The notes under the pieces were generated by a model. The model did not search any database. It had not been told where the DNA came from and worked only from the letters and a program-made list of their open reading frames with translations. Shown here piece after piece: positions 37,190-53,017 of a DNA stretch of 64,000 bases. The DNA comes from Bacteroidaceae bacterium (lineage in GTDB: Bacteria > Bacteroidota > Bacteroidia > Bacteroidales > Bacteroidaceae): assembly GCA_017483605.1 (NCBI GenBank), contig JAFUWG010000027.1:1-64000 (forward strand), given 5' to 3'. The translations under genes were made by a program, and so were the position numbers. Position 1 is the first letter of the stretch. Every line of letters starts with the position of its first letter.

Positions 37190-37214
37190 AGGCTCATTTG
37201 ATAACCAACCAAAC

Positions 37215-37251: not shown

Positions 37252-37262
37252 CCGTTTCTGCT

Positions 37263-38453: not shown

Positions 38454-38458
38454 AATTC

Positions 38459-38524
38459 AAAAATGTTCAATCTGTTTGTGAAAAATGTTCAATCGTTTGA
38501 GTAAAAATGTTCAATCTGTTGCAA
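38459..38524. repeat. Three 22-bp direct repeats in the ATPase leader
   Basis: AAAAATGTTCAATC begins each unit at 38459, 38481 and 38503, followed by 8 variable nt. The units lie between the -7 box (38522-38529) and the ATG at 38453, hence in the transcribed leader or over the start site. They may bind a regulator as tandem operators, or act in RNA. Confidence 0.85.
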
Positions 38525-38529
38525 AGGTA
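38522..38529 (-). promoter_or_regulatory. -7 box for the ATPase gene
   Basis: The minus strand reads TACCTTTG, fitting TAnnTTTG. It overlaps the end of the 22-bp repeat array. Confidence 0.6.
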
Positions 38530-38680
38530 ATCATCTTTCGTCAAATAGCCAAGAAAAAGGTCGGTTTTTGCAATGAATCGTACAAAATAGTTCGACTTCC
38601 CCGCCAATGATACAAATTCAATGATTGAAAAAAGCATCATTTGAGATTCCTTTCTTTTGAAGGCTCTCATAAAGACAAAC

Positions 38681-38719
38681 AGCCCGACGAGACACACCAG
38701 AATGCAGTCTCGTCGGGCT
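38681..38719 (-). terminator. Hairpin terminator after the lipoprotein cluster
   Basis: AGCCCGACGAGAC pairs with GTCTCGTCGGGCT over a 13-nt loop, 20 nt past the stop at 38739. The minus strand continues GTTTGTCTTT. Confidence 0.8.
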
Positions 38720-38738
38720 GTTTTCGTTGAGTCTGCTT

Positions 38739-39200
38739 CTACTCAGCCGTTGCCACTTTCATCACATCTCCATCACCCACGTAGTAAACGATGGGGAGCA
38801 AGTCGGTCGGTACGTCTTTGACGAGTGGGTCGTAGTTGTTGCCAGTAGGTAGGTCGCCCAACTGCCTCATGTCCTCTTGCGTGAGAGGTCTCTTCTTGAA
38901 AATGTATGACTGATAAGTGCGGTTCTCATACATGGCATCAGATGAGTCAAAGCAAGGGTAGGGATGCCATTGCTCTCCCACATGCACCTCACATTGTTGC
39001 TTGGGTTTCAACACAGATGCATCGTCCCGTAGAAGGGCACTTTTATACAGTGACATCTCCACATACTGCTTGATGTCCTCCAATCCGTGAAACACGTGTC
39101 CCAGCAGTTTTACATCTGCCGTGATGGGGTACTCCCTCACCACCATCTTCTTCTTTGGCTTCTGATTCCTCCAGAAGTTAAACCTGAAAATATTTTCCAT
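38739..39200 (-). CDS. Hypothetical protein
   Basis: The 153-aa protein has a basic N-terminus (WRNQKPKKKMVVREYPI) and no signal peptide or membrane helix. No family is recognised. It ends the series of minus-strand genes from 42507 and is followed by a terminator. Confidence 0.6.
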   Translation of the reverse strand: MENIFRFNFWRNQKPKKKMVVREYPITADVKLLGHVFHGLEDIKQYVEMSLYKSALLRDDASVLKPKQQCEVHVGEQWHPYPCFDSSDAMYENRTYQSYIFKKRPLTQEDMRQLGDLPTGNNYDPLVKDVPTDLLPIVYYVGDGDVMKVATAE

Positions 39201-39222
39201 ATCGTCTTGATTTTTAAAGAGA

Positions 39223-40008
39223 TTATTTCTTTACTAAATTCTTCAGCCGCTCTATCACTTTGGGGTCAACCTCTCTTTCGCCCTTTTGAGCAACATAGGT
39301 GTAATATCCCAGCAAGAACTGCACCCCACCATCATCCAGACAGGTTTGTTCTTCGGCTTTAAGATAGAAGGCCTCCGCCTCAAGCACATTTGTGTTACTG
39401 CTGTCAGCCCTTTCTATACACATTCTTGCCAACTCATTATACAAAGGCGGAAAATCCTTTGCCACCACCGACATTGCATCCATATCTTGCCTCAAAATGG
39501 CCGCAAAGAAACGTGCCATTCTGCTCCCTTTTCTATCCAAGGTGTCAAATATTTCTATCGCCTCATCTGTCTGGTTCTTTTTCATGGCGATGAATCCTTC
39601 CACCAACTTCGGAGAGAATCCCGCACCCTCCAACTTCTTCCCTTTCGCAAGTGCTTTATCATATTGGTGCTCTTCAACCATCTTGGCTATGTTGTAAACC
39701 ATCTTGACTGAGTCTTCGTCTTCCAAAGATTCAAATACCGTATGGAAAGAAGGGGTTAAACCATAGAGTTCTGCCATGACACCCATCGATGCCATCTTGA
39801 TGACACGCTGCTCCAAATGAGGTTCTCTTTGGTGATAGCACTCCGCCAACCTCAAATAAGCCATACGATTTCCCTGCCGAACTTGTTCCGTATAATGCGT
39901 AATGCTGTCGCTCCAGTTCGCATTTTCATCTCTCGTACTCTTGGTGCTTTGCTTCTGGCAACCGAAACAAAACAATGCTATCGCCAATGTCAATAATTCC
40001 TTTTTCAT
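39223..40008 (-). CDS. Lipoprotein with TPR-like helical repeats
   Basis: The 261-aa protein has a lipoprotein signal (ELLTLAIALFCFGCQK; lipobox CFGC). Alpha-helical repeats follow that look like TPR/Sel1 units (YDKALAKGKKLEGAGFSPKL; NQTDEAIEIFDTLDRKG). The role is unknown. It lies 22 nt upstream of the hypothetical 153-aa gene and probably shares its transcript. Confidence 0.65.
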   Translation of the reverse strand: MKKELLTLAIALFCFGCQKQSTKSTRDENANWSDSITHYTEQVRQGNRMAYLRLAECYHQREPHLEQRVIKMASMGVMAELYGLTPSFHTVFESLEDEDSVKMVYNIAKMVEEHQYDKALAKGKKLEGAGFSPKLVEGFIAMKKNQTDEAIEIFDTLDRKGSRMARFFAAILRQDMDAMSVVAKDFPPLYNELARMCIERADSSNTNVLEAEAFYLKAEEQTCLDDGGVQFLLGYYTYVAQKGEREVDPKVIERLKNLVKK

Positions 40009-40100
40009 CCTTTTTCTTCTTTACATTCAACAATGAGATGCTTCAATCCTTTTTTTCTTTTTTCCATTCTCAAAACTTCTTGCCACAGACCTCTGTCTAT

Positions 40101-41114
40101 CTATTCTTTTAGAATCATTTTTCCCTCTGGGGTCATGTATGGCTCCAACTTCTCGTATGGAACCACGAAATGGAAAGCACCTGCGGCAAAGCAACTCAAA
40201 ACGTATGGCTGATAAGAAAAAACCACCCCTTCCTTCACAAGACCTACAGAGACATCCTTATATTCATCGGTCAGTTCTCCCTCATCATCTTGTTTAAGAA
40301 AATTCTCTCTGATTTCCGTCATTGTCTCATCTCTCTCCCAATACCTGTATTTCTTGTCATTGCTTGCCTCTTCAAAAATCAGCATCATAATATCCTCCTT
40401 ACTTTGAGGCTTGAACAGATAATCCCAATCAATCTCCTTCTGATTTGCAGGGTCAAAAGAATAGACTCTTTCCAGATACAATCCATGTATGCCGCCCCAA
40501 TAATTGTCCACAAACCCTTGATAAGACACAAATTTCTCAGTCGCAATGAAGGCTTTCATGCAGATGTGCTGATACAATCCATACGGATAATTATTTTCAT
40601 CCTCATCTTCACCCATATCAATCAACTTGAAAAATCGGTCTCTGTAGAATTGAGCAATTTTATCATCCTTATAGATGTCACCTCTATACAAGGATTCTCC
40701 AGAATCGTTAAAATGCACCTCGCTATACAAAGACAATGCTTCTTCAAATCTTCCAATCAACCATTTCCTGATACTTAAGCAATATACCATTTCTCGTTTA
40801 GGGAAATCCACACAAACCCCATACTCAAAATCTCTGCCGAAATCTGCCTTGTATGTCTTCTCAAACCTTCTGAGCGAAGCCAATGCCTTATCAGGAGCCA
40901 GCGACCAGAAGAAACTGTCCTCCGGTTGCTCCCGTTCCTCTTCCTCCTCATCCGCATTCTCCTGATCCTCCAACCCCCAAGCAGCCGTATCAACCTCATT
41001 GTTCACCTTCTCAATCTTCGGCTCGCCATGCCACCATTTCTGCAAGCCTTTACCGAACATGCCCAAGGCAATCAGTATCGCCCAAGCCACTACCAACCAT
41101 TTTGTATTCTTCAT
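40101..41114 (-). CDS. Membrane-anchored DUF3298/RsiV-like protein
   Basis: The 337-aa protein has an N-terminal membrane anchor (WLVVAWAILIALGMFGKGL), an acidic linker with a Glu run, and a soluble domain. The C-terminal GVVFSYQPYVLSCFAAGAFHFVVPYEKLEPYM is characteristic of the DUF3298/RsiV family, whose known member is an anti-sigma factor that also binds lysozyme. Here the function is unknown. Confidence 0.65.
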   Translation of the reverse strand: MKNTKWLVVAWAILIALGMFGKGLQKWWHGEPKIEKVNNEVDTAAWGLEDQENADEEEEEREQPEDSFFWSLAPDKALASLRRFEKTYKADFGRDFEYGVCVDFPKREMVYCLSIRKWLIGRFEEALSLYSEVHFNDSGESLYRGDIYKDDKIAQFYRDRFFKLIDMGEDEDENNYPYGLYQHICMKAFIATEKFVSYQGFVDNYWGGIHGLYLERVYSFDPANQKEIDWDYLFKPQSKEDIMMLIFEEASNDKKYRYWERDETMTEIRENFLKQDDEGELTDEYKDVSVGLVKEGVVFSYQPYVLSCFAAGAFHFVVPYEKLEPYMTPEGKMILKE

Positions 41115-41168
41115 CTTCGTTATTTAATTTTTATGTACACCCCATCTTCTATCTGTCACGCTACAAAC

Positions 41169-42101
41169 CTAATATTCAGGGAAAAAGTTCTTTTTTGAAT
41201 ATTGCTGGATAATTCTCTCAGTCATGTAGTCAAACCATGTAGCATCTTTCTTGTTGATTTGCATAGCCACTTTCTTGCGATATTGATACCATTCCTTTAC
41301 AACTCCCGTCATCGTGTCTGTCTTCACAGCACTTTTTGCCATTTGACCCATACTCTTCCCTTGTATCAAAGCATCCTCCTCTTTCAAAAGATTCTTTCGC
41401 CAACTTGCCACAAGATTCAGAATCCCCTCACACTCGACTGGGAGCATGGTATAGTAATCTTGGTTTTTCAATGCCTCTTCACGCCATTCCCCTGCACATT
41501 GCAAACCCAACCTTGCCCAAAAGCAATAATCATCATAATAGGCATCTTTCAATGTCGCATTCTGTGTGTGAGATATGAGCGTCTTATACATGTCAATCAA
41601 CCGATAATCTGCAGTAATCGCCCATCCTTTTGCAGAAATACTTAACGAGCCAATGCAAGAATAATCGTTATACCCATCCTCCAATTTTACCAAAACCCTC
41701 TCATAATCAGCCGTATCGTGCGGAGCGACATCCCCCATGCTTGATTCCAGATAAATGTCCATTTTCTTTTTCACCTTGTCATGCCACTTCCACATTTTGT
41801 TCACTCCATCCTTCCATTCTTGCCGATTCTCCCAATCCACATCAGGATACTCATCCGTCAAACATAACTCCACCTCCAACAGCCCGTCAGGAAACAGTTC
41901 ATCCATCGTCGTTTCGCTTGACAACCCTTTGCATGGGTCATCCAAAGAATCCAAATCCACATACAACACATCATTACTGTCACTGGGTACATCGTCTGCC
42001 ACTTGTACCTCCTTCTCCCTGCTTGAAGGCGGCGTTCCATTGTTCTTGCAGCCAACAACTGCAAGTCCGCATACCATCACAAAATAAATAATCCTTTTCA
42101 T
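41169..42101 (-). CDS. Putative lipoprotein
   Basis: The 310-aa protein starts MKRIIYFVMVCGLAVVGCKN with lipobox VVGC. The start at 42101 puts the lipoprotein signal first; the in-frame codon at 42125 adds 8 residues. An acidic linker leads to a mostly helical domain with repeated Trp and Lys. No family is recognised. It is adjacent to the RsiV-like protein and TPR lipoprotein, suggesting a common envelope function. Confidence 0.6.
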   Translation of the reverse strand: MKRIIYFVMVCGLAVVGCKNNGTPPSSREKEVQVADDVPSDSNDVLYVDLDSLDDPCKGLSSETTMDELFPDGLLEVELCLTDEYPDVDWENRQEWKDGVNKMWKWHDKVKKKMDIYLESSMGDVAPHDTADYERVLVKLEDGYNDYSCIGSLSISAKGWAITADYRLIDMYKTLISHTQNATLKDAYYDDYCFWARLGLQCAGEWREEALKNQDYYTMLPVECEGILNLVASWRKNLLKEEDALIQGKSMGQMAKSAVKTDTMTGVVKEWYQYRKKVAMQINKKDATWFDYMTERIIQQYSKKNFFPEY

Positions 42102-42121
42102 CTTTTCATTATTTGAACCTA

Positions 42122-42507
42122 TCATAAATCTCTCATATTGTAATCCAGTCTCTCAACATCAGCCAGCAATCGCCCTAATAATGCTTCATCGTCCAACTTA
42201 TTCAGGATGTCCTGTTTCGTTCCCGACTCAATCATCATCTCTACAGCAACAGCATCCTCGTCTGCTCCCTCCATTCTTTTGCCATCAGCATTTTGCTTAA
42301 ATGCCACATAAAACAAACCTCGCTTCACGTCCCTGCTTGTAACCCCACAGGTGGTTGCCGCACCTCCAGCATCAACCAGCCTATACAAAACTTCGGGTTT
42401 GACAATGCCGCACCAGCCGTCACCGCTTCAAAATCCCCACATACGGGCACGTCTTTTTCAACTTTCACCCGCATATCCTGAATCATGTTTCCTAACAAAG
42501 TTTCCAT
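42122..42507 (-). pseudogene. Frameshifted hypothetical gene
   Basis: Two overlapping frames read as one protein. The first begins METLLGNMIQDMRVKVEKD and runs to about ALSNPKFC, then the sense continues in another frame as YRLVDAGGAATTCGVTSRDV and ends DVERLDYNMRDL. The switch lies near 42385-42400. A -7 box TACATTTG at 42533-42526 precedes the ATG. Each frame alone is truncated, so this is either a pseudogene, a sequencing error or a programmed frameshift. Confidence 0.5.
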
Positions 42508-42628
42508 CACATTCAAACATTTTTGCAAATGTACAACACTTCTTCCAATTCTCCAATCGATTTCCCTTTTAGATTTATCATTTCCCTCAAATTGTCCCCT
42601 TGCGATGTCCCTTTTCTCCTAAAGAGCA

Positions 42629-42662
42629 GCGACCATGAAGAAATCTATCACTTCATGGTCGC
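42629..42662 (-). terminator. Hairpin downstream of the AT-rich island
   Basis: GCGACCATGAAG pairs with CTTCATGGTCGC over a 10-nt loop. It has no long U-tract. It lies about 70 nt after the last gene of the minus-strand island (42730). Confidence 0.5.
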
Positions 42663-42729
42663 AGGGACAAGATTGTCAAGTATCACAAACCACGTATGAT
42701 GAGTAAGGACTTTCCATAAATAGGTGACT

Positions 42730-43251
42730 TCAAGATAATTCTCTACCTGTTTCCAAATCGATATCTCCATGAACTTCTCTCCCTAGAAATCCAATACGGA
42801 CATATTCCGTAATATTACCTCGATTATACTTTGAGAAGCCTTTATACTTATAGTCTGTTATTGCTATGTCCACAGGTTTTATTAAAGCACATCTATCATT
42901 ACTCCACGCAACATATATATCTCGCCAAGCATGTGATAAGTATTCGTACTTAAAATGGAATGCTGTAGAAAGCGTGTCTCTATAAAGCCCTCCCCAGCAC
43001 TCATTTTTCTGCAACAGAATGATGCCATTATAACATTCTACAAATCCCGAGTCATAGATTGCAGGGATTACAAATTGTCCTCGTAGGTTAATCCATCCCC
43101 ACTTCCCATTTTTTTGTACACCTAGCAGAGAACAAGAGGACGATGATTCTATTAAAGAGTTGTCCAGTCCTACATTATACTCTCTTAATAACTCTATATC
43201 ATCAAACTGATAACGAAAACGAGTTACATTTAGGTCATTAAATTTTTCCAT
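42730..43251 (-). CDS. WG-repeat-like protein
   Basis: The 173-aa protein contains a WG repeat (LLGVQKNGKWGWINLRGQFVIPAIYD) and a second weaker one (ECWGGLYRDTLSTAFHFKYEY). WG repeats are beta-rich binding modules of unknown role. No signal peptide. It is the last gene of the minus-strand island that carries the radical SAM maturase. Confidence 0.65.
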   Translation of the reverse strand: MEKFNDLNVTRFRYQFDDIELLREYNVGLDNSLIESSSSCSLLGVQKNGKWGWINLRGQFVIPAIYDSGFVECYNGIILLQKNECWGGLYRDTLSTAFHFKYEYLSHAWRDIYVAWSNDRCALIKPVDIAITDYKYKGFSKYNRGNITEYVRIGFLGREVHGDIDLETGRELS

Positions 43252-43279
43252 AAAGTGATTTGTCTAAAAATAATTGTTT

Positions 43280-43819
43280 TTAATGTCTATAAAAATTCCA
43301 TAATTCTTTTACTTCACTAAGTGTGGGTACAGGACACAACTTCTTAATCGCGAGGCTTACTAATTTCGACAGAACCGTGTCGACTCCACAGTAACGAAAA
43401 ATCTCATCAAATGCGGTACCTAATCGCCACGTGTAAAAATAGTTGATTATACAGTTTGTCGCCAACCCAATCCAGGCACCAACTCCCGAATATGTTAAAA
43501 TTTTAACAAGTATACCAGAACCAACCATGAAAGTCGAAGCACTCATAAGTATTGATGTCGCAATTTTCAAACAAGTTTCATTGCTAAACTCTACGTCATA
43601 TTCTTTTGCTATTTTATAAATCATTGTGCCCCAGATTGCAGCTAAAGCGGGGGCATCCGTTGTGAAAGCACCGATCAGCCCTACTCCAGCCGCTGCGTGG
43701 CATCCAACTTTAATGATTTTTGCTATATCATAATTTAGAACCATAGTATTTGTTATTGTAGATAAATGTGCCAATATTTTCTTTGTCTTTTTAGAAAGAT
43801 GCGGATTTGAAAGAACCAT
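43280..43819 (-). CDS. Hydrophobic Gly/Ala-rich membrane-associated protein
   Basis: The 179-aa protein has several hydrophobic Gly/Ala-rich segments (VGCHAAAGVGLIGAFTTDA; ATSILMSASTFMVGSGILVK; YSGVGAWIGLATNCIINYFY) like the membrane parts of DUF697/YcjF-type proteins, but no GTPase motif. No family is assigned. In a RiPP context a membrane protein of this kind could be an immunity or export factor (inference). Confidence 0.55.
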   Translation of the reverse strand: MVLSNPHLSKKTKKILAHLSTITNTMVLNYDIAKIIKVGCHAAAGVGLIGAFTTDAPALAAIWGTMIYKIAKEYDVEFSNETCLKIATSILMSASTFMVGSGILVKILTYSGVGAWIGLATNCIINYFYTWRLGTAFDEIFRYCGVDTVLSKLVSLAIKKLCPVPTLSEVKELWNFYRH

Positions 43820-43834
43820 TTTATGTTCAGTTCC

Positions 43835-44410
43835 TTATGTCTTTTGTGTATCTATAAGCCTATCGAACAGTGATTTAAAGAACCAATAGATTTTCCATGA
43901 CATTCCATATGTTTGGGGATGTTCTATTTTGTCATGTTTGAGCCAAATTTCTTTTTTTTCTTCAATTTCAAGAATGAGTTCCATCGCATCTGCTTGCAGT
44001 TCTCTGATCTCATCCTTTTTTTCTGTCAAAAATGTTAATTCAAAATGGCATAAAATTTTCAAATCCCTAATGGAAGCATAAAACTCATTATAAACATTAC
44101 TATTCGATAACGAAATGTTACATAGGGCAATCAAATAATGACTAAACCCTCGCAAAAGATACATGTATGCATCTTGGTATTTTTTGTCTCTTTTACTGTT
44201 GTTGAGGAGTTTTATGGATTTTAGTGCTTCTTTTTTTGCCAATTCTGCATTATCAGAGTCTGTAGCCGTTTGCAAATGTTCCATTGCTTTTTGTAACATA
44301 TGGTTATTTTCAGACAAATATTCATCCAAAAATGTACCAAGATCCCAACCGATTTTAGTTGCTTTATAAATATCCCCTACAATGGGGACATATTTTAAAA
44401 AAGATTCCAT
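43835..44410 (-). CDS. Hypothetical helical protein
   Basis: The 191-aa protein is predicted mostly helical. Its N-terminus MESFLKYVPIVGDIYKATK is amphipathic; then charged helices (QKAMEHLQTATDSDN; EIRELQADAMELILEIEEKK). No family is recognised. It is 15 nt upstream of the hydrophobic 179-aa gene and AT-rich like the rest of the island. Confidence 0.55.
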   Translation of the reverse strand: MESFLKYVPIVGDIYKATKIGWDLGTFLDEYLSENNHMLQKAMEHLQTATDSDNAELAKKEALKSIKLLNNSKRDKKYQDAYMYLLRGFSHYLIALCNISLSNSNVYNEFYASIRDLKILCHFELTFLTEKKDEIRELQADAMELILEIEEKKEIWLKHDKIEHPQTYGMSWKIYWFFKSLFDRLIDTQKT

Positions 44411-44430
44411 AGATTTAATCCATTTTGTTT

Positions 44431-44946
44431 TTAATAAAAATGTGTATCTTTATAAAGGGAAAGTTGATAATCTTTTAGAGAAGCCTTTGTTATTGTCAAA
44501 CTTTTGAATCCAAAATTTAAAAGTATTTTCTCCGAAATGATATTGTCATCTCGGATTTGTGTATTGATGGCACTACATTGTATTTCTTTCCGTATGTATT
44601 TGAGAACCATTGCTATGCACTCCTTCATTATCCCTAAATTTCTATACAGAGGGTGAATTGCATAGAACAATGCTGGTCTTGTCGACAAATCCATGATGGC
44701 AATGAATCCAATCAAGCGTTTTTTTAACTTGATGCCCCATAAAATTCCTTCATTTTGAATTAGATATTTCTTAAAACAAGTAACAAACAACCTCATTCCT
44801 TCTTTTGTTCTCACCAAGCTATAAAGTTCAGGCAAGAAACGCTGAGACTCAGCATTTTCCATTATTTCATGGAGAAAAGGTCCGTCCTCTTGGCATATTT
44901 CATCAAGAACACATCTGTTAGTATATAATTTAGGAACATTTTTCAT
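44431..44946 (-). CDS. GNAT-family N-acetyltransferase
   Basis: The 171-aa protein follows the RimJ/RimL-like GNAT pattern: NRCVLDEI at the start, GIKLKKRLIGFIAIMDL, YAIHPLYRNLGIMKECIAMV for the acetyl-CoA loop (a degenerate R-x-x-G-x-x form), and NIISEKILLNFGFK at the end. Its start overlaps the stop of the radical SAM gene by 4 nt, so the two are translationally coupled. In that setting it may acetylate the modified peptide or provide self-protection (inference). Confidence 0.8.
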   Translation of the reverse strand: MKNVPKLYTNRCVLDEICQEDGPFLHEIMENAESQRFLPELYSLVRTKEGMRLFVTCFKKYLIQNEGILWGIKLKKRLIGFIAIMDLSTRPALFYAIHPLYRNLGIMKECIAMVLKYIRKEIQCSAINTQIRDDNIISEKILLNFGFKSLTITKASLKDYQLSLYKDTHFY

Positions 44947-46172
44947 ATCATTAATCCCCTTTCTGCCATTTCACAAAACAGCAACATGTACAATCGGGCA
45001 TATACTCGTTCATTATGACATAAGACATCCCATTGTTCATCATTAAACTCTATAGCAGTAAGACAAAGGTCACACATACGAATAGCAGGGCAATAGGTAC
45101 ATCTACAAACTCGTTTGTTGTAATATTGTAACGCCAACTCATTTGCTTTATGCCAATTAATACCGTTCTTGATGTTTCCAATACGATATTGGTCAGAAAT
45201 TTTCTCGCAAACTGCAATTTGCTTGTTTGTGTCAATATACAACTTTGTATTGACAGGCATACAAGTTGCCATAGGGACAGAACTATCGACCTCAACAATG
45301 GGGCGGTCTTTCCAGTATGCGATACATCCATTAAAGAAGGCTTTGAGTACAAGCCAGTCTTGGTGTCGCTCATATATATCCAACAAGTACAAATACTGGT
45401 CTCGAAGTTTATCCCAATTGTATGTTTTTACCACTTTTGCGAAATTGGGTGCTAAACCTACAATTTGCGAGGGAGATAGTTTGTGTAAGATGATGTCCTC
45501 ATTCCAGTCTTCCGCCAAAGCCTCCAGTTGCTCTATGGAAGGAAGCGTCATTAACAATTGTATGTTAGAAACGTATTCAGGATAGTTGCAAACAATATAG
45601 GATAATGCGTCATATACCCGAGAGAATGAGCCTTTGCCTACCTCATCGATACGGTAACGGTCATGGAATAGCGCTGTCCCATCTATAGATATTGCTAATT
45701 TCACATGATGGGTGATTAACCAATCTGCCTTTTCTTTTGAAAGAAGCGTGGCATTTGTAGATAAGGAGAAAGAAACATCTTGAGGCCACAGGTATAATGC
45801 TTTCTCAACAGCATATTTGATGCGTTCGTATTGAAGCAAAGGCTCACCACCATAGAATACGATTTGTACTGGACGTTTGCGAATTACATGCTGAATAAAA
45901 GTATAGACCTCATCAATGTCAGCAGGACTCATTGAACGAACACCATGAGTGCGGTTGTTCTTATATTCACCAGAATAACAGCAATAGGAACAACGAAGAT
46001 TGCATTGTTCTGTGATACTTAAAATAAACATCTCCACCTCTGGCATTGCAAAAAAAGGGTGGAATGGCTCAAACGACCACGCATACCCATCATCATTTAC
46101 AGCACCACAGACGATTTCACCAGTTTGCCGTAGATAGGAGTATATATTATATCTGGTCGTTTTTACTTGCAT
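44943..46172 (-). CDS. Radical SAM/SPASM peptide maturase
   Basis: The 409-aa protein has a roughly 50-residue N-terminal domain, then SITEQCNLRCSYCCYSGEYK with the radical SAM CxxxCxxC motif (C57, C61, C64). IVFYGGEPLLQYERI and LAISIDGTA are typical of peptide-modifying members. The C-terminal SPASM domain has many Cys (MATCMPVN; AVCEK; VCRCTYCPAIRMCDLC) for auxiliary Fe-S clusters. Such enzymes install thioether or C-C crosslinks in ribosomal peptides. The ATG at 46172 is preferred to a TTG at 46178. A 55-aa Cys-containing peptide gene ends 6 nt upstream and is the likely substrate. I do not recognise a named subfamily. Confidence 0.9.
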   Translation of the reverse strand: MQVKTTRYNIYSYLRQTGEIVCGAVNDDGYAWSFEPFHPFFAMPEVEMFILSITEQCNLRCSYCCYSGEYKNNRTHGVRSMSPADIDEVYTFIQHVIRKRPVQIVFYGGEPLLQYERIKYAVEKALYLWPQDVSFSLSTNATLLSKEKADWLITHHVKLAISIDGTALFHDRYRIDEVGKGSFSRVYDALSYIVCNYPEYVSNIQLLMTLPSIEQLEALAEDWNEDIILHKLSPSQIVGLAPNFAKVVKTYNWDKLRDQYLYLLDIYERHQDWLVLKAFFNGCIAYWKDRPIVEVDSSVPMATCMPVNTKLYIDTNKQIAVCEKISDQYRIGNIKNGINWHKANELALQYYNKRVCRCTYCPAIRMCDLCLTAIEFNDEQWDVLCHNERVYARLYMLLFCEMAERGLMI

Positions 46173-46178
46173 ATCCAA

Positions 46179-46346
46179 TTAATGCTTACTATGATAATGA
46201 CCATTACATTGATGACTTAAACACCTAACTTGGCAGGAACTAAGTCCCATTGCTTTAATAGCCTCTTTCTGTCCCGGCTCAGATATTCTATTCGAATTGA
46301 GTTGAAACAGAATGCTTGTATTACTTGTAATGAAAGAGGTCTGCAT
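46179..46346 (-). CDS. Putative RiPP precursor peptide (55 aa)
   Basis: This ORF runs from an ATG at 46346 to a TAA at 46181-46179, and is too short for usual gene-length cut-offs. The peptide has a polar N-terminal leader-like part (MQTSFITSNTSILFQLNSN) and a KEAIKAMG segment. Its C-terminus is GLSSCQVRCLSHQCNGHYHS, ending KH. The three cysteines are C38, C42 and C47, with Ser, His and Asn beside them. Position (32 nt after the previous gene, 6 nt before the radical SAM start) and the Cys-containing C-terminus are what a thioether-type or other rSAM substrate would show. No homologue is recalled, so the assignment is inference. Confidence 0.6.
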   Translation of the reverse strand: MQTSFITSNTSILFQLNSNRISEPGQKEAIKAMGLSSCQVRCLSHQCNGHYHSKH

Positions 46347-46378
46347 GTATTTAATTCGATGAACAATTAGGGGTTTAA

Positions 46379-46618
46379 TTATGCAGAAAAATCCTCACCA
46401 CAATTGCAACAATGGTATCCTTTGCAGTCTGCTGGTTTCATTTTGTCCCACACATTTTTCGCAGCGCCCCCACCCAATGCAGGATGAAAGACACCAAACA
46501 CAACGCCTGCACCTAAAGCAACTGCTCCCCTGCCAACATTGAGAATACCATGTACTACCCTATTCTCTATTGCCATTTCTGTATTATAAGAATGGCATTT
46601 TGGACATTGTTTAGACAT
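46379..46618 (-). CDS. Small zinc-ribbon protein with glycine-zipper segment
   Basis: The 79-aa protein has an N-terminal CPKC and a C-terminal CCNC pair that can bind zinc. They flank a hydrophobic Gly/Ala-rich segment (GRGAVALGAGVVFGVFHPAL). The segment could insert in the membrane. The motif NVWDKMKP resembles KDVWDK at the end of the other small zinc-ribbon protein (47582). It directly precedes the precursor peptide gene. Confidence 0.6.
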   Translation of the reverse strand: MSKQCPKCHSYNTEMAIENRVVHGILNVGRGAVALGAGVVFGVFHPALGGGAAKNVWDKMKPADCKGYHCCNCGEDFSA

Positions 46619-46636
46619 AATTCTATTTTTATAGGT

Positions 46637-47569
46637 TTATAATGATCTTAAATTCTTATCAATAATCTGTTTATACCCTGATGAGTTATACCAATCAAGC
46701 AAATTCTTTGCTCTGACCACAAGCCACGGAAACTCTGCAGAACGGATTGAAAGAGCCTTTACTGCCTTGTCCATAGTGCTCGTGAAGTTTTCATCAAAAT
46801 TTTTTGCTTGTTGGATGAAGCTCTCTATATCAATATGGTGATAACATTTCTTTGGTAACCCTGCTTTCTTAATCATGGTAGACAGAGCGGCGTTAATATC
46901 TTGACAACAAAGCAACCCCACTCTGTCTGCCGTATAATCAGAGGTTCGATACCACTCCAATAAAGGCAATTTGATAATAGCCCCCCATGCCTTAAATGCC
47001 GCATCATTGATGAATGGCATATAGAATGTCTCCAACAGCATGTGATACGGTTTATGACCACATACTATATGCCCTAGCTCATGACCAAGAGTGAACATCA
47101 TTTCATCTTTTGTAAACAAATCTACACTTCCTGAAACCATAATAATTCTGCGATGTGTCTCTCCGTTAGAAGAATGATAGGGGGCATAGAACCAATTTGT
47201 AGAATAAGTAGGAACCTCTTTTATTCCTAAAATTTCGCATGCCTCAACTAATTGTCGGTACATTTGAGGAAGGCTCTTATTTGTTATGTTGATTCCTTCT
47301 CCTTGATATTCAACCTCATTATATGCTTCACGATATTTGCTTGTTGTTATGCGAAGAAAATCCTTAAATGTATAATAGTCCTTTCCCGCTTTCAAAATCT
47401 CTAACCATTCTTTCAACAATTTATCTTTGGGGTGTTTTATCATTTCACGTATAAATTCCTTCAATGAATAATAAGGCACTTGCAAACCATTCAGCCAATC
47501 AATAGTTCGCTTATCATCAGGGTGCATAACTGCATTGTAATTTATACGAGAGAATTCTTTTCGTTTCAT
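46637..47569 (-). CDS. M48-family metallopeptidase, copy B
   Basis: The 310-aa protein has the zinc motif GHELGHIVCGH (near residue 162) and the distal SDYTADRVGLLCCQD supplying the third ligand, as in M48 proteases. No clear signal peptide; one hydrophobic segment follows the active site. It is a paralogue of copy A (47888), sharing SxxTADRxGLLCCQ. In the island it could trim the leader of the peptide (inference). Confidence 0.82.
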   Translation of the reverse strand: MKRKEFSRINYNAVMHPDDKRTIDWLNGLQVPYYSLKEFIREMIKHPKDKLLKEWLEILKAGKDYYTFKDFLRITTSKYREAYNEVEYQGEGINITNKSLPQMYRQLVEACEILGIKEVPTYSTNWFYAPYHSSNGETHRRIIMVSGSVDLFTKDEMMFTLGHELGHIVCGHKPYHMLLETFYMPFINDAAFKAWGAIIKLPLLEWYRTSDYTADRVGLLCCQDINAALSTMIKKAGLPKKCYHHIDIESFIQQAKNFDENFTSTMDKAVKALSIRSAEFPWLVVRAKNLLDWYNSSGYKQIIDKNLRSL

Positions 47570-47581
47570 CTTAAATACCCC

Positions 47582-47833
47582 TTATTTATCCCACACATCT
47601 TTGCCTGACAGATTTTTTTCTGACGGGTATAGACATTCACTGCATTTCCAATACCGATGTCCTTGAATATTTTGGAGCATTTCATAGATTCCCATTCTTG
47701 AAATAATTCGTTCTATTTGTAACTGAGTACCTTCTATGCCCTGCAATGCAAGATATTCTTCAGCCTTGATCTCTAAATGCCGTGTGTTTTTTCTGCATTT
47801 GCTACAATAAAAAGCATTTGTTGCCATATGCAT
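47582..47833 (-). CDS. Small zinc-ribbon protein
   Basis: The 83-aa (or 81-aa from the second ATG at 47827) protein has FYCSKCRKNTRHLEI near the start and YWKCSECLYPSEK near the end, a two-CxxC zinc ribbon. The middle is helical. It lies between the two M48 genes, 12 nt from copy B. Confidence 0.6.
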   Translation of the reverse strand: MHMATNAFYCSKCRKNTRHLEIKAEEYLALQGIEGTQLQIERIISRMGIYEMLQNIQGHRYWKCSECLYPSEKNLSGKDVWDK

Positions 47834-47887
47834 CTTGATATTATTAACAATAGTTTTTGTATATTATATATTACTTCTTCCAACATC

Positions 47888-48700
47888 TCAAATAACACAT
47901 TGTTTATACCCTCCTGAATCTATCCATTTCAGCAATTCTGCAGATCTCATTACCGTCCAGGGATGGCTTTCATCTGCAATAGAAAGGAATTTAACAACTT
48001 TATTCATGTTATCGTAATCGAGCATTTTGAAATCATGTGCCTGTTGCAGGAATGTCTCTGTACGTATAGTTTTGAACTCCTTAATAGGAAGTCCTGCCAT
48101 TTTAATAAAAGTACGAATCATTGCCTCTTGATTTTGGCAACACAAAAGCCCTGCACGGTCAGCCGTAAATTCGGACATTCGATTCCAATAATAAAGAGCG
48201 TACTGAATTCCACCAGAGATAAGACTTGCTCCAGATATTGCATCAATAATAAAATTAATCACTTGTGCCATCATATGATATAACATATGATTCGATTTAA
48301 TATGTCCGCATTCATGACCTATAATAAACATGATTTCATCTTCGTCACATAAATCAATAAGTCCCGAGTTCAAGATGATAATAGGATTCTCTGCCCCTAT
48401 CGTACACGCATTTATTCCATAACTCCATTGTAAATAGAGGTCTGGTACTTTCTTTAAATCAAGGATTCTGCATGCTTCCTCTAAGTATTGGTGTATGATC
48501 GGATAATTTTTATTTGTAACCTTTAGATTGCTACCTGTGTATTGTACAGTATACACACGTTCTACTAGATTGGAAGTCACCCATTCACTTGCTTTTGTGA
48601 GAAAAGGAATGGCTTCCAATTTTTCCAATGCTGCTTTATCAAAAGGATGTTCATACAAACGGTGCTCTAATCCTTTTAATATTTTTCTTTTATGTTCCAT
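47888..48700 (-). CDS. M48-family metallopeptidase, copy A
   Basis: The 270-aa protein has IIGHECGHIKSNHM (HExxH near residue 130) and SEFTADRAGLLCCQNQ. A hydrophobic stretch (VINFIIDAISGASLISGGI) lies between them. It has no N-terminal signal, so it is probably cytoplasmic or inner-membrane facing. It is the first protein gene of the island, downstream of a long structured leader. Its substrate is unknown. Confidence 0.82.
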   Translation of the reverse strand: MEHKRKILKGLEHRLYEHPFDKAALEKLEAIPFLTKASEWVTSNLVERVYTVQYTGSNLKVTNKNYPIIHQYLEEACRILDLKKVPDLYLQWSYGINACTIGAENPIIILNSGLIDLCDEDEIMFIIGHECGHIKSNHMLYHMMAQVINFIIDAISGASLISGGIQYALYYWNRMSEFTADRAGLLCCQNQEAMIRTFIKMAGLPIKEFKTIRTETFLQQAHDFKMLDYDNMNKVVKFLSIADESHPWTVMRSAELLKWIDSGGYKQCVI

Positions 48701-48717
48701 GCTCTTATTTATCTGAA

Positions 48718-48956
48718 GTTAGTTTTATGCGAGGAAGCAGCACTAACTTCGCAAGGGGGCAAAAGAAAAGTGCAGCCTTCGTCGTAATTCCGCTCAGGCC
48801 TGCGACAGCCCTCATAACACCTTACAGAGAAGTCTGCACCATATAGGCACAACTTCAAAGTGTTATGAGATTTGTTCTTAAATTTTCCTTGTTTCGAGGT
48901 CGCAGTTCGAGCGGAAATTTGAACAAATAAAAGTTGTATTCCGAAGAATACGGTTG
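48718..48956 (-). ncRNA. Candidate structured leader RNA or ncRNA
   Basis: The promoter at 48957-48985 would start an RNA whose first part is a hairpin GTATTC-TTCG-GAATAC, with a UUCG tetraloop. Nested complementary blocks follow: CCGCTC (48791-48796) with GAGCGG (48909-48914), CTGCGAC (48801-48807) with GTCGCAG (48899-48905), and CTCATAACAC (48812-48821) with GTGTTATGAG (48860-48869). A further hairpin (AGTGCTGC with GCTGCACT, one mismatch) lies near the downstream end, just before the M48 start at 48700. I cannot place it in a known RNA family. Confidence 0.5.
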
Positions 48957-48985
48957 CAAATTTACATCTTTTTCTTTACAAACAA
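48957..48985 (-). promoter_or_regulatory. Promoter of the AT-rich island
   Basis: The minus strand has TTG (48985-48983), an 18-nt spacer and TAAATTTG (48964-48957). Confidence 0.6.
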
Positions 48986-49064
48986 AATAAAACTTTGTGT
49001 TTTTTTGAAAAAATGTTTGTTTGGTTCACTTTTCTGGTGTTTTATGGCTTGTTTTGTATGAAAA

Positions 49065-49097
49065 GAAAAAAGCGAGGTGGTGGTGCCTCGCTTTTAG
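49065..49097 (-). terminator. Terminator before the AT-rich island
   Basis: AAAAAGCGAGG pairs with CCTCGCTTTT with an 8-nt loop. It lies downstream of the stop at 49125 and upstream of the island's promoter, so it probably separates the two transcription units. Confidence 0.85.
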
Positions 49098-49124
49098 TTG
49101 TGAAGAAAGCAGAAAGATACTTCT

Positions 49125-49499
49125 TTAGTTCTCCGACTCTTCCTCAAACTCCTGATAGGCATGGTGAAACGCTGCTTCGTCGAGGAAGATGTTGGGGTAG
49201 GAGGCAAAGCAGAGGTGGAGGAGGGTGAAGAGGGTGCGGAGTTGGTGATGCCCTTCGGGGGTGTGCCAACGGATGATGAAAAAGACGGTGGCATCGGGAG
49301 GAAGACGATGCTTGAAGAAGTCTTTGGCGGAGGCGAAGCGGTCGCCATAGAGAAGGTGGAGGAGCACGTCCGGCTCTACATATCCACGTGGGAACTCTGC
49401 ATAGAGGCGTTTCAGCGTAGAAAGGTAGCAGTTTCCCACACTAAGGCAGTTGTTCAGTCCTGCCATTTTGAGGACGTTGAAGTTTTGTGGTGTCATCAT
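49125..49499 (-). CDS. Hypothetical protein
   Basis: The 124-aa protein has no recognised domain, signal peptide or membrane helix. The start MMTPQNFNVLKMAGLNN could be either ATG. It follows the DUF5675 gene with 12 nt between them and ends at a strong terminator. Confidence 0.5.
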   Translation of the reverse strand: MMTPQNFNVLKMAGLNNCLSVGNCYLSTLKRLYAEFPRGYVEPDVLLHLLYGDRFASAKDFFKHRLPPDATVFFIIRWHTPEGHHQLRTLFTLLHLCFASYPNIFLDEAAFHHAYQEFEEESEN

Positions 49500-49511
49500 A
49501 TTTCTTCATGT

Positions 49512-50051
49512 TTATTGAGGTTCAACATCTGTTTCTTCATCTATCAAGTTCCAGTCGTAGTCGTCGAATTTGAGGGGCGTGGACTGGAAGAATGCGGACT
49601 TGTTGTAGGTAAAGTCGGGTGCGTGCGTGATGGTGGCAGTGATATACTCTTGCTCATTTTTCAATACTTTTCGTTCCAGAACTTGGATTTGCAGGAACTT
49701 CGCCAGCAGGTTCATTGCCTTATCGCTACCCTTGATGGCAAACTCGCCGTCAAATTCTGTGCCCAGGATGACACTGCCTGATGCCACATCGTCGGGTTCG
49801 GTGCCGCTGTCGAATTGTGCGTTGTGGTAGGTGCCGAAGAGGGCAAAACGCAGGGTGCAGAAAAGAGGGTTGTGTACGAGTTTCATGGTGTAGCGGCCTT
49901 CGGGCAAGGCAAGCATCGCCTTGTTGCGTGTTTTTGCATATTGCGGGTTGGCTGCTTCCAGTGTGTAGCAAGCGAAGGGTGTTCCTTCGATGCGGAGGCG
50001 ACCTTTGGTCACCACTCTGTTGCCAGAGAAACGTTCAATAATGATTTTCAT
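49512..50051 (-). CDS. DUF5675-family protein
   Basis: The 179-aa protein begins MKIIIERFSGNRVVTKGRL and contains CYTLEAANP, LPEGRYTMKLVHN and GTEFDGEFAIKGSDKAM, resembling the DUF5675 family found in Bacteroidetes chromosomes and phages. Function is unknown; the fold is thought to be beta-rich. It is clustered with two small genes of phage-like character and with HU-like genes at 51995. Confidence 0.65.
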   Translation of the reverse strand: MKIIIERFSGNRVVTKGRLRIEGTPFACYTLEAANPQYAKTRNKAMLALPEGRYTMKLVHNPLFCTLRFALFGTYHNAQFDSGTEPDDVASGSVILGTEFDGEFAIKGSDKAMNLLAKFLQIQVLERKVLKNEQEYITATITHAPDFTYNKSAFFQSTPLKFDDYDWNLIDEETDVEPQ

Positions 50052-50077
50052 AATTGTATGGTTTAAGTGTGAAACAT

Positions 50078-50257
50078 TTAAGATTTGTAGATGATTTCTG
50101 TATAAGAGAAGTGGTTCATGGCATACACTCTTATCTGTTGGCAGAGGAGTGAATTCCGCTGAAACGAGAGTGCCATTGCCACAAGGCTTTTCACGACGCC
50201 GAAATGCTCAATGAGTTTTTGGCGGTCTTCTTTGTCAATTTCAATTACTTTTTTCAT
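50078..50257 (-). CDS. Small conserved-type protein (59 aa)
   Basis: The ATG at 50257 opens MKKVIEIDKEDRQKLIEHFG, and the frame continues VVKSLVAMALSFQRNS to TAA at 50080-50078. It is a short helical protein of the kind often seen beside HU-like and DUF5675 genes in Bacteroides and Prevotella; it may bind DNA, but no known domain is certain. A promoter and a large hairpin lie upstream. Confidence 0.55.
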   Translation of the reverse strand: MKKVIEIDKEDRQKLIEHFGVVKSLVAMALSFQRNSLLCQQIRVYAMNHFSYTEIIYKS

Positions 50258-50353
50258 AAAACAATCTTGTTTTTAAGGGTTGCTGAAATTTTTTCTCACA
50301 TTGGGGCTTCTACAAATCAAAGCCCGAAACCAGCACGTGACTGATTTCGGGAG

Positions 50354-50414
50354 CAAAGTTACATAGGGTGCACCCCCTTTTGCACCCTTTCAGGGGAGTG
50401 CAAAATGGGGGTGC
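50354..50414 (-). promoter_or_regulatory. Promoter -7 box with adjoining inverted repeat
   Basis: TAACTTTG on the minus strand (50361-50354) is followed upstream by the inverted repeat GTGCACCCCCTTTTGCAC / GTGCAAAATGGGGGTGCA (about 50369-50415), with an 11-12-nt loop. The repeat covers the -33 region, so it may be an operator; it could also terminate the upstream gene ending at 50427. Confidence 0.5.
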
Positions 50415-50426
50415 AAACGTGTTTTA

Positions 50427-51386
50427 CTATAAATTCTCGCGAATTTCTTTCGCTATCTTTGGAGAAACTTTTTCCAGACAAGATGCGACGAACTCTACAT
50501 CTTTAACTACTGAAGGGTCGTCATAGTTGATGCCCGAAGATGGGATTTTGTTGCGGATGCTACCTTTCGACCTGCCAGACACTCGGCTCAACAGTTCCGC
50601 AAATGCACTGATGTTGGTTTCGCCAGGCACTAATGTCAAATTCAGCAGCGTCTCGAACAAGATTGCCAGTTGGCGATTGGTAAATTGCTTCGTATTGTCC
50701 TCATCATTCACATCAAGGATTTCCGACTCTTCTTTCTGTGCTGGTTTCTTGGGGAGAAAGCCTGTCGGCAATGGCACTTTCTCCATCTGTGTATTGATGA
50801 TGGCAGGAACAACAGCGTCTTGCTCATCGAGAAAAATATTCACCTCTTCCGACCAAAAGACATCGCTGACCATATATTCCTTCAGATAAGGCACAAACAC
50901 TTCATCCCAATATCTTCGGCTATTTGGATGTGGTTCATGCTTAGCCCCCAAACCTACAGTGAACCCACCATTCATGTCAATCCCAACCTCCAAGTCTTCA
51001 ATGTACTTGGTGAAATCGGGCAACCACGATGTTTTTGAGTGATAGGCATTGATACATGTTCTTACACATTCCATGATGACATCGATGGCTTTGTTGATGC
51101 TCTCGTCTGATGCACGTGGGGGTGCAATGCCTCTGTAGTCATCAAAAAAACTTAATTCCAGACTTACCGTGCTATACTTCTTGTTGTCAATTTTTTTGTT
51201 TCTTCTTAAGGTGTCAAGCACCCAGACGCATCCATAGAAGATTTCTGCATGTGACAGTTTGAAGACGGCAACCTTCCTGTCATAGATGGCATAGTAGGGC
51301 GTGAGTCCCTTGTATATAGTGTTTTTACCAAACTTTTCGTCTATCAGATTTTGGTATCTTCTCACTTTGCGTAGTCTTTCTTTCAT
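50427..51386 (-). CDS. Hypothetical protein (RteC-like region possible)
   Basis: The 319-aa protein has a charged N-terminus and no signal peptide. The C-terminal segment TNRQLAILFETLLNLTLVPG ... LSRVSGRSKGSIRNKIP has a helical, possibly DNA-binding character, but I cannot assign a family. It is AT-rich at its promoter (51452-51482) and stands alone. Confidence 0.55.
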   Translation of the reverse strand: MKERLRKVRRYQNLIDEKFGKNTIYKGLTPYYAIYDRKVAVFKLSHAEIFYGCVWVLDTLRRNKKIDNKKYSTVSLELSFFDDYRGIAPPRASDESINKAIDVIMECVRTCINAYHSKTSWLPDFTKYIEDLEVGIDMNGGFTVGLGAKHEPHPNSRRYWDEVFVPYLKEYMVSDVFWSEEVNIFLDEQDAVVPAIINTQMEKVPLPTGFLPKKPAQKEESEILDVNDEDNTKQFTNRQLAILFETLLNLTLVPGETNISAFAELLSRVSGRSKGSIRNKIPSSGINYDDPSVVKDVEFVASCLEKVSPKIAKEIRENL

Positions 51387-51451
51387 CGTCTTGTCCTCCT
51401 ATATATAAATAATGTGTAAAGGTAAAAAATGGTTCTCTCGTTTTCGTGCTG

Positions 51452-51482
51452 CAAAGATAGTCAAAACTTTTGTTTTTGGCAA
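51452..51482 (-). promoter_or_regulatory. Promoter for the 319-aa hypothetical gene
   Basis: The minus strand has TTG (51482-51480), a 20-nt spacer and TATCTTTG (51459-51452). Confidence 0.75.
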
Positions 51483-51529
51483 AAAAAGAGGAGCCTAAAT
51501 GTTCGCCAAAGTTTGTGTTTTTGTCATGG

Positions 51530-51770
51530 TCAACACTGTCGCCAATGTCTTCACTCATCTTTTGCCCGTGTCTTCACTTGTTTCATGCCCGACATCTCGA
51601 ACGGCAGTGTTCCGTGTCTTCCGAGTTCTCTTGCCCGTATCTTGCTTGCTCTCATGCCCGTGTCTTCCGACTCCTCTTGCCCGTCATCACTTTGCTCCGA
51701 GGCTCGTCATCACTTTGCTCTCATGCAGGTCATCACTTCGCTCTCATGCTCGTGTCCACCGTGGAGATGA
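51530..51770. repeat. Degenerate repeats upstream of the HU-like genes
   Basis: Repeated blocks such as TCTTGCCCGT, CTCATGC and GTCATCACTT, with CTTTGCTCTC variants, recur through this intergenic stretch. They loosely resemble the TGCCCG-containing repeats (reverse complement) at 225-385. No gene is recognised here. Confidence 0.55.
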
Positions 51771-51859
51771 AAAACGTCGGATGAAAATGGATATGGAGAG
51801 GTGAGTTCACAAGGCTGCGGCAACTTGTGAACAATCTGAAAGGGCATTGATTTAGTCCG

Positions 51860-51867
51860 TAACTTTG
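51860..51867 (+). promoter_or_regulatory. -7 box for the HU-like genes
   Basis: TAACTTTG fits TAnnTTTG; the -33 element is not clear. The leader to the ATG at 51995 is about 120 nt and contains AAAGGAG shortly before it. Confidence 0.55.
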
Positions 51868-51994
51868 CATCGGATTCAAGAGAGAATCGGGGCATGAAAG
51901 GCTCATCCGGAGGGGTGTTTCAGACCTTGATACGCTGGCGGATCCAAAGTTAAAAGAAGTATTAACAACTTAAACAAAGAAAGGAGACACCATT

Positions 51995-52393
51995 ATGGCA
52001 GTCAAGTATCGTTCAGTAAAGGCTATCCTCGGTTACATCGAGGAAAAACCGCAGGTATGGAAGGTACAGAAACTTACCTTCCCGGTGATTAAAGAAAATG
52101 CACTGGTTGAGTACATCGCCAACTCTGCCCACATTCCTAAGAGCACGGTCAAGGGTTGTGTGCTTGCCATCAGCGAGGCAATTGCATACTTTGTCATCAA
52201 CGGACACTGCGTGACGTTCGATTCGTTCGGCTCTTTCTATCTGAAGGTGCAGACGAAGGTCGCTCAGACGCTTGAAGAATGTGATGCCAACGTGATTGAA
52301 AACACCACGCTCGGATTTCGTGCCAACACCAAACTTGCCGAACTTGCTAACAAGACAAAGGTGGAGCGAGCAGCGTCCCTCAATCTGGACTAA
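51995..52393 (+). CDS. HU-like DNA-binding protein, copy 1
   Basis: The 132-aa protein belongs to the Bacteroidetes HU-like group with extensions at both ends. The IHF/HU core is recognisable in ALVEYIANSAHIPKSTVKGC ... ISEAIAYFVINGHCVTFDSFG. The region after it replaces the usual DNA-binding arms with a variant. AAAGGAG sits upstream of the ATG, an unusually clear Shine-Dalgarno for this organism. It is followed by a paralogue. Confidence 0.82.
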   Translation: MAVKYRSVKAILGYIEEKPQVWKVQKLTFPVIKENALVEYIANSAHIPKSTVKGCVLAISEAIAYFVINGHCVTFDSFGSFYLKVQTKVAQTLEECDANVIENTTLGFRANTKLAELANKTKVERAASLNLD

Positions 52394-52433
52394 TCAACAA
52401 ATTTGTTTTACATTCAAAGAAAGGAGTTTTTTT

Positions 52434-52937
52434 ATGAACACATCAATTTCCCCTATCAAGGGTGCAACCCTGATGTACCCCAAGAAAGTGACCCTCAACT
52501 TCATGGAGGATAAGCCCGAAGTTTATCGTCTCTGCTATCTGCGTGGCAGCGTGATTCACGACAAGGAGGTCATCTACTATGCAGCAAAGGCTGCCCACGT
52601 GCCAGAAAGTACCATTAAGTTGGCTGAAGAGGCTCTCTTCGATGCCATCAGTTACTTCTGCACCAATGGACACGCCGTGCAAGTTCCTGGACTCGGTTCG
52701 TTTGGTATTCAGTTCAACACCAATGTGGCTGAAACCGAAGAGGAGGCGACTGAGGAGTGTATCAACCGCAAGTATATCCGCTTTTGGCCCAAGCACGACA
52801 TCCGTGACCTTTGTAGTCAGAAGAATCTCAATGTCGAGGTGAAAGACCTGCTGAAACTCAAACAGGCGAACAACACACCTTCTGATGATGATTCGGGTGA
52901 CAACACGCCTGATACACCTGACACCCCTACTCCATAG
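52434..52937 (+). CDS. HU-like DNA-binding protein, copy 2, with acidic Pro/Thr tail
   Basis: The 167-aa protein has the same core as copy 1 (YYAAKAAHVPESTIKLAEEA ... NGHAVQVPGLGSFGIQF), then a C-terminal tail DDDSGDNTPDTPDTPTP with short repeats. AAAGGAG precedes the ATG at 52434; an in-frame upstream start at 52296 lies within copy 1 and is not used. A terminator follows. Copies 1 and 2 probably form heteromeric nucleoid-type proteins (inference). Confidence 0.82.
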   Translation: MNTSISPIKGATLMYPKKVTLNFMEDKPEVYRLCYLRGSVIHDKEVIYYAAKAAHVPESTIKLAEEALFDAISYFCTNGHAVQVPGLGSFGIQFNTNVAETEEEATEECINRKYIRFWPKHDIRDLCSQKNLNVEVKDLLKLKQANNTPSDDDSGDNTPDTPDTPTP

Positions 52938-52968
52938 TTGGGTAGTGCATGGTTCTGACAACATGAAG

Positions 52969-53001: not shown

Positions 53002-53017
53002 TTGGGTTGCAGGTGTC

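Follow-up and report, generated by a model that had tools for sequence, protein, structure and literature searches.

The DNA analysed here, a stretch of 64,000 nucleotides from a Bacteroidaceae bacterium (contig JAFUWG010000027.1) that we call the window, carries on its minus strand a gene for a 55-residue peptide followed by genes for a radical SAM/SPASM enzyme and a GNAT acetyltransferase, with genes for M48 metallopeptidases on the 5' side (Table 1). The original prediction had singled out the first three of these as a system for a ribosomally synthesized and post-translationally modified peptide (RiPP). When we re-read the sequence, we found the same open reading frame (ORF) for the peptide, with Cys at positions 38, 42 and 47. 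The predicted distance of 6 nt between this ORF and the maturase gene and the numbering of the maturase CxxxCxxC motif (C57, C61 and C64) hold if the maturase starts at ATG 46172, TTG 46178 being the other possible start, and the maturase and GNAT genes do overlap by 4 nt in the window.

Table 1. Features of the window locus, given as positions in the window
Feature	Position	Strand	Remarks
Putative precursor peptide, 55 aa	46179..46346	(-)	LNxN motif in N-terminal part, then AMGLSSCQVRCLSHQC core-like tail, Cys/His-rich
Radical SAM/SPASM maturase, 409 aa from ATG 46172	44943..46178	(-)	CxxxCxxC and eight C-terminal Cys
GNAT acetyltransferase	44431..44946	(-)	4-nt overlap with maturase; fused in 4/12 loci
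M48 (HtpX-like) metallopeptidase	46637..47569	(-)	HELGH, no clear membrane helix
Second M48 metallopeptidase	47888..48700	(-)	HECGH
79-aa ORF	46379..46618	(-)	Cys pairs (zinc-ribbon-like), Gly-rich hydrophobic middle; by eye, family matches below cut-off
83-aa ORF	47582..47833	(-)	Cys pairs (zinc-ribbon-like); below cut-off
191-aa protein, no family recognised	43835..44410	(-)	Same strand, directly 3' of GNAT
DUF697-like protein, 179 aa	43280..43819	(-)	20.3 bits, cut-off 27.7
Accessory segment holding the operon, ~15.8 kb	37191..53024	.	Comparison with same-genus relatives

The small ORF is conserved beside the maturase

An alignment-based scan of genome contigs returned 31 loci; with the window maturase alone as query, the contig scan returned no relative. 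We worked with a set of 12 loci, namely the window and the 11 close relatives, which align with the query over almost its full length at 40-56% identity. The other 20 loci (22-38% identity, best segment) were dropped before counting, and only the neighbourhoods of two of them, L052 and L055, were listed. Loci L046 and L051 duplicate L034 and L033, respectively (same contigs), so that each was counted once, and genome G384, which has the same contig number and coordinates, was treated as the L042 genome.

Immediately 5' of the maturase gene, all 12 loci encode an ORF of 45-68 residues, whose stop codon lies between -1 and 13 nt from the maturase start. The original prediction had proposed a search of other Bacteroidales for conserved Cys spacing and would have been contradicted by operons lacking a small Cys-containing ORF or carrying a broken frame; we found the frame intact in every locus, and all 12 ORFs share the motif MG-x3-C-[QN]-x2-C. 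When the 12 peptides were aligned, L16, N17, N19, M33, G34, C38 and C42 were invariant, Q39 was replaced only once (Asn in L047), and the tail after C42 varied in both length and sequence. The MG...C...C pattern occurs 13 times in the six frames of the 441,517 bases around the loci. Twelve of these occurrences are the small ORFs themselves, and the remaining one has an internal stop.

The small ORF is under purifying selection in the informative, moderately diverged pairs, as judged from the proportions of nonsynonymous (pN) and synonymous (pS) differences: pN/pS was 0.07/0.66 for L048/L049, 0.14/0.57 for L042/L047, 0.18/0.76 for L042/L043 and 0.19/0.86 for L044/L050. The near-identical trio L044, L045 and L051 is less telling (pN 0.015-0.037 versus pS 0.08-0.11). 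For the window ORF, the values were 0.39/1.06 with L046 and 0.47/0.73 with L041; the case for constraint on this particular ORF rests mainly on the family, because only distant relatives could be compared and pS is near saturation.

The original prediction recognised no named family for the peptide, and indeed nothing in Pfam or NCBIfam matched it at E<=1, nor did the precursor family have a meaningful NCBIfam match. We then used a profile of the precursors to search a draw of 393 genomes from the order, with up to 16 candidates scored per genome. Only two genomes matched at E<1e-3, the next match having E=0.002, and the maturase search at E<=1e-60 picks out the same two. Both contributed rows to the profile, and the informative part of this result is thus the absence from the other 391. 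Weak matches (E<=1) appeared in 186 of the 393 genomes and were taken as chance at such scores.

Altogether, these sequence comparisons indicate that the 55-codon ORF is a real, conserved gene that is coupled to the maturase, GNAT and M48 genes in 12 of 12 loci. They also support the RiPP reading, as a putative precursor with a conserved N-terminal part and a core lies beside a modifying enzyme in each locus, and the small peptide is very likely the substrate of the maturase. Alternatively, the ORF could encode a short protein that binds metal as a partner of the maturase or regulates it, the true substrate being another protein of the operon. The peptide is rich in Cys and His, and strict pairing would be equally expected of a subunit. 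We nevertheless regard this as highly improbable, given the leader/core-like conservation with a variable tail and the lack of any other small protein common to the 12 loci: when ORFs of at least 50 or at least 60 residues were clustered, no cluster beyond M48, precursor, maturase and GNAT was shared by all. Peptide maturases resembling this enzyme, moreover, act on such neighbouring small peptides.

Relatives of the maturase suggest thioether chemistry, and the GNAT is fused to it in one clade

The maturase matches Radical_SAM in Pfam, and the Cys of CxxxCxxC and the eight C-terminal Cys are invariant in all 12 aligned sequences. Its nearest NCBIfam models are CcpM, GG_samocin_CFB, RumMC, lachnocin and PapB. 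The CcpM, RumMC, lachnocin and PapB models match all 12 members, the best E-value of any member being 6.9e-56, and CcpM is the best for the window maturase, over nearly the whole length. Scores of the window maturase were 180.7 bits for CcpM (TIGR04068; cut-off 500), 152.5 for GG_samocin_CFB (TIGR04148; cut-off 300), 151.7 for the RumMC sactipeptide maturase (NF035951; cut-off 720) and 131.8 for the PapB ranthipeptide maturase (NF047865; cut-off 340), and it is also far below the lachnocin cut-off of 550. We regard the precursor and maturase as a new family. The NCBIfam match begins near residue 45 and therefore leaves too few residues for a RiPP recognition element domain, which is larger than this. 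The closest solved chain is 5wgg, which we take to be CteB, a thioether-forming SCIFF maturase. The nearest models together with this structure make a Cys-based thioether the likeliest bond, and we judge it moderately probable, by analogy, that the maturase forms one.

The GNAT matches Acetyltransf_3 in Pfam. With the Met start chosen here, its gene shares 4 nt with the end of the maturase gene in all eight unfused loci. In L044, L045, L050 and L051, maturase and GNAT are a single ORF of ~570-580 residues, and these fused proteins form one clade (support 98/96). Among the nine solved structures matched by the GNAT, three (2fck, 3igr and 9mto) are labelled ribosomal-protein acetyltransferases, which suggests N-terminal acetylation of the freed core. 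The GNAT likely acts on the peptide.

M48 peptidases accompany the module

One to four M48 genes are found in the mapped stretch of each of the 12 loci (32 in total, with three in 7 of the 12), and HExxH is present in all 32 copies. The largest 19-residue hydropathy mean among them is 1.94, and the copies look cytosolic. An M48 gene lies directly 5' of the precursor gene in 11 loci; in the window, the 79-aa ORF intervenes. The M48 enzymes are the natural candidates for leader removal, and we judge it moderately probable that they trim the peptide.

The locus is accessory and sporadic

The window locus is accessory. In four of six same-genus relatives examined (L106-L109), the sequences corresponding to window positions 37190 and 53025 (the aroB side) lie only ~43-124 bp apart; L105 aligns only at aroB, and L110 only at aroB and a stretch beyond. 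A second window stretch, ~23400-34060, also has borders that are close together in relatives L106-L108. A maturase more than 50% identical was found in 3 of 251 genomes drawn from the family (the bacterium's own, G128 and G196), and the 16 same-genus genomes among those listed gave no maturase match at E<=1e-10. In a draw of 395 genomes from the phylum, with up to four candidates scored per genome, only the bacterium's own genome matched at E<=1e-50. No family member was found in the viral collection or in the plasmid collection, where all 64 records were below 60% identity and the 20 listed were 23-30% identical.

Peptide-derived cofactors such as pyrroloquinoline quinone and mycofactocin offer another way to read the module: the maturase would modify the peptide, the peptidases would cut it, and the product would serve an enzyme of the operon as an intracellular cofactor or metal ligand. 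Such a role would fit the cytosolic-looking peptidases, the lack of a visible exporter (see below), the single, very conserved core motif and the Cys and His of the tails. It is harder to reconcile with tails that vary in length and sequence, with the lack of any further protein cluster common to all loci and with the sporadic distribution described above, and we consider it rather improbable.

Related radical SAM loci outside the set

The bacterium encodes a paralogous maturase elsewhere in its genome (L035, C52:72919-74127; 29% identity; CcpM 199 bits, below cut-off). The ORF before it (86 aa) is very acidic and has Cys in its tail, and a zinc-ribbon/Gly-rich ORF of a layout similar to that of the window 79-aa ORF lies beside the paralogue as well. 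No member of the M48 or GNAT clusters was found in its neighbourhood, and it looks like a second, different peptide system. The related maturase of L052 (L052:715-3446) is accompanied by an acidic ORF of 105 aa whose C-terminal tail is Cys-rich and which differs from the precursor family, and it adjoins a radical SAM protein resembling glycyl-radical-enzyme activases (TIGR02494, 144 bits; cut-off 174); no M48 or GNAT cluster member was found there either. Within the set, L047 encodes a second radical SAM/SPASM protein (L047:10347-12933; best model CefB, 222 bits, cut-off 600) less than 1 kb 3' of the GNAT gene, followed by a Mur-ligase-like protein.

Most of the relatives lie among conflict-type genes

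We scanned 60 neighbouring proteins of the 12 loci against Pfam. A neighbour that is a hallmark of predicted conflict systems was found over the Pfam cut-off in 10 of 12 loci, at distances of up to ~16 kb from the maturase. This count includes DUF4407, the treatment of which as a hallmark is an addition of this analysis; it is not named in the main text of PMC7159879. DUF4407 was over the cut-off in L041, L042, L044, L046 and L050 and is the sole hallmark in L041 and L050. As a control, we located all over-cut-off DUF4407 genes in the 12 genomes and found that five of the six lie within ~6.1 kb of the maturase. The other hallmarks and accompanying domains over the cut-off were Hsp70 (L043, L044 and L047), DO-GTPase2 (L048 and L049), PP2C (L042 and L046), kinase-vWA and AAA-kinase proteins (L042), a protein kinase (L046), NusG and DUF445 (L044), and Tubulin_2, DA1-like and FGE-sulfatase (L051). 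Directly 3' of its fused maturase-GNAT, L044 encodes a protein (L044:9845-11392) that combines a caspase, an EF-Tu domain 2 and a ribosomal L7/L12 C-terminal domain, and L041 encodes Schlafen AlbA_2 and OLD-like TOPRIM proteins, also over the cut-off, a few kb 3' of the module. Below the cut-off were dynamin-like proteins (L042 and L044), a sigma-70 region 4 and anti-sigma pair (L050) and vWA proteins (L041 and L051). In L045, the contig ends 4.4 kb on, and the scanned 494-aa neighbour had no match. On the L051 contig, a 1338-aa protein with a C-terminal FGE-sulfatase domain (L082:6121-10134) is part of the same-strand gene run as the module. A tightly controlled module and internal use are suggested by the conflict-type partners together with the NusG relative and the sigma/anti-sigma pair, the latter matched only weakly.

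PADLOC matches to individual proteins were at the domain level only and were set aside: viperin to the maturase (50 bits), CapP to one M48 (14.4 bits), PD-T4-6 and others to the kinase-vWA protein, and PDC-M61B to Hsp70 (18.4 bits).

No exporter is visible near the module

If the module instead made a conventional secreted RiPP, such as a bacteriocin or signal, an exporter would have to be encoded elsewhere and the conflict-type genes would be coincidental members of long accessory operons. The nearest maturase models (CcpM, RumMC and lachnocin) take their names from systems for Cys-rich peptides, sactipeptides and lachnocin, and a variable precursor tail is also seen in bacteriocins. Near the 12 maturases, however, none of 375 ORFs (>=60 aa, within 22 kb) contained the ABC ATPase motif pair. 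This check is crude: it was shorter at contig ends (L051, 2.8 kb upstream; L046 and L045, 3.6 and 4.4 kb downstream), and its control was partly positive, with two ORFs found in L055 and none in L037-L040; three of these four loci contain members of a cluster taken for ABC/peptidase transporters. No peptide exporter was seen among the 60 scanned neighbours, which include one P-type cation ATPase, no double-Gly leader was seen in the precursors by eye, and the M48 copies look cytosolic. A secreted product therefore seems about as improbable to us as a cofactor.

Comparison with known systems

In section 24 of Kaur et al. 2020 (PMC7159879), peptide-processing modules consisting of a zincin and a small precursor are described in actinobacterial VMAP systems and in FtsH systems; those of the FxSxx type additionally have a radical SAM/SPASM enzyme, and the processed peptide is predicted to be a toxin or signal. 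The present module resembles these systems in its small precursor, zincin and radical SAM/SPASM enzyme and in its ties to NTP-dependent conflict systems: a zincin metallopeptidase (M48 with HExxH) and a precursor gene are found in 12 of 12 loci, and the link to conflict components in 10 of 12, the window having none. It differs in several respects from the FxSxx-COOH systems. The precursors carry MGxxxCQxxC and none of the 12 has an FxSxx end, the maturase scores 65.7 bits with the FxsB model (cut-off 370), the module includes a GNAT and M48 peptidases, and it is found in Bacteroidales. Its neighbours are of the DUF4407, Hsp70, tubulin-like, GTPase and caspase types; no VMAP, MoxR or AP-ATPase partner was recognised among the 60 scanned neighbours (one AAA-kinase lies near L042, and many neighbours were unscanned). 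The CcpM, RumMC, lachnocin and PapB systems are related at the level of the maturase, as scored above, and have a different precursor.

The GAP1-N2/DO-GTPase conflict systems (PMC7159879, section 29) share tubulin, Hsp70, kinase, PP2C and vWA types with the surroundings of the present module. That section assigns them mainly to actinobacteria, firmicutes and a small number of other phyla, and no radical SAM peptide module is mentioned there as accompanying them. Pfam did not detect GAP1 in the two L048 candidates. The same paper reports L12/ClpS domains in bacteroidetes vWA proteins, with which the caspase-L12 protein of L044 is in line. The main text of a Bacteroidales RiPP survey (PMC10352776) names neither GNAT, M48 nor acetyltransferase. 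In the open-access literature, mostly at the level of titles and abstracts, we recognised no description of this module. By analogy, the module is best read as the Bacteroidales version of the peptide-processing systems described in Kaur et al. 2020, built on another precursor and another maturase.

A model for an internally used peptide

We propose that the neighbouring radical SAM/SPASM enzyme takes the small peptide as its substrate, with the N-terminal part (LNxN motif) serving as leader and the MG-x3-C-[QN]-x2-C tail as core. The maturase would introduce Cys-based (thioether) crosslinks with C38 and C42 as donors, the cytosolic-looking M48 peptidases would then remove the leader, and the GNAT may acetylate the new N-terminus of the freed core or a lysine. 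The product would be kept in the cell, where it would serve an accessory operon of the conflict type (defence or stress) as toxin or signal. We infer the modification, the bond type, the order of the steps, the internal use and the defence role. Taken as a whole, an internally used, Cys-crosslinked, protease-released and probably acylated peptide in a conflict-type operon is the reading that we favour, with some confidence; for the internal conflict role in itself, we put the chances at about even.

Several observations weigh against this reading. The window locus has no hallmark neighbour, and neither DUF4407 nor Tubulin_2 was matched in the window assembly, which is 81.5% complete; the conflict link therefore rests on the relatives. 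Of the three genomes with Tubulin_2, only one has it at the locus, and PADLOC made no defence assignment, giving weak domain-level matches in only 4 of 10 proteins. The maturase scores fall far short of all curated cut-offs, and with just two invariant Cys and a variable tail, no particular bond can be named. Other solved GNAT matches are spermidine and aminoglycoside acetyltransferases, the main text of a review of RiPP proteases (PMC10885120) contains neither M48 nor HtpX, and an exporter could still be encoded elsewhere in the genome. Precursor and GNAT distances do correlate with maturase distances (r=0.89 and r=0.94, respectively; 0 of 5000 permutations as high in each case), which speaks for the coupling, but plain joint inheritance of one unit would be expected to give such a correlation too.

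The original prediction did not include the M48 peptidases, the surrounding conflict-type operons, the radical SAM-GNAT fusion or the absence of a visible exporter; taken together, these shift the interpretation away from a secreted, bacteriocin-like RiPP and towards a peptide used inside the cell. More speculatively, the module might be an immune-like system of Bacteroidales, in which a cytosolic, radical-SAM-crosslinked and acetylated peptide acts as effector or alarm (an intracellular immune signal or suicide toxin, not a secreted antibiotic) and is released by M48 when sensors of the tubulin, Hsp70, GTPase or caspase type fire; we hold this only tentatively. If the favoured reading is true, it would add a precursor/maturase family that lies below the cut-offs of all NCBIfam models matched, a naturally occurring fusion of a radical SAM enzyme with a GNAT and a possible part for M48 enzymes in peptide maturation, and the idea of modified peptides inside NTP-dependent conflict systems, which Kaur et al. 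describe mainly from actinobacteria, would be extended to Bacteroidales.
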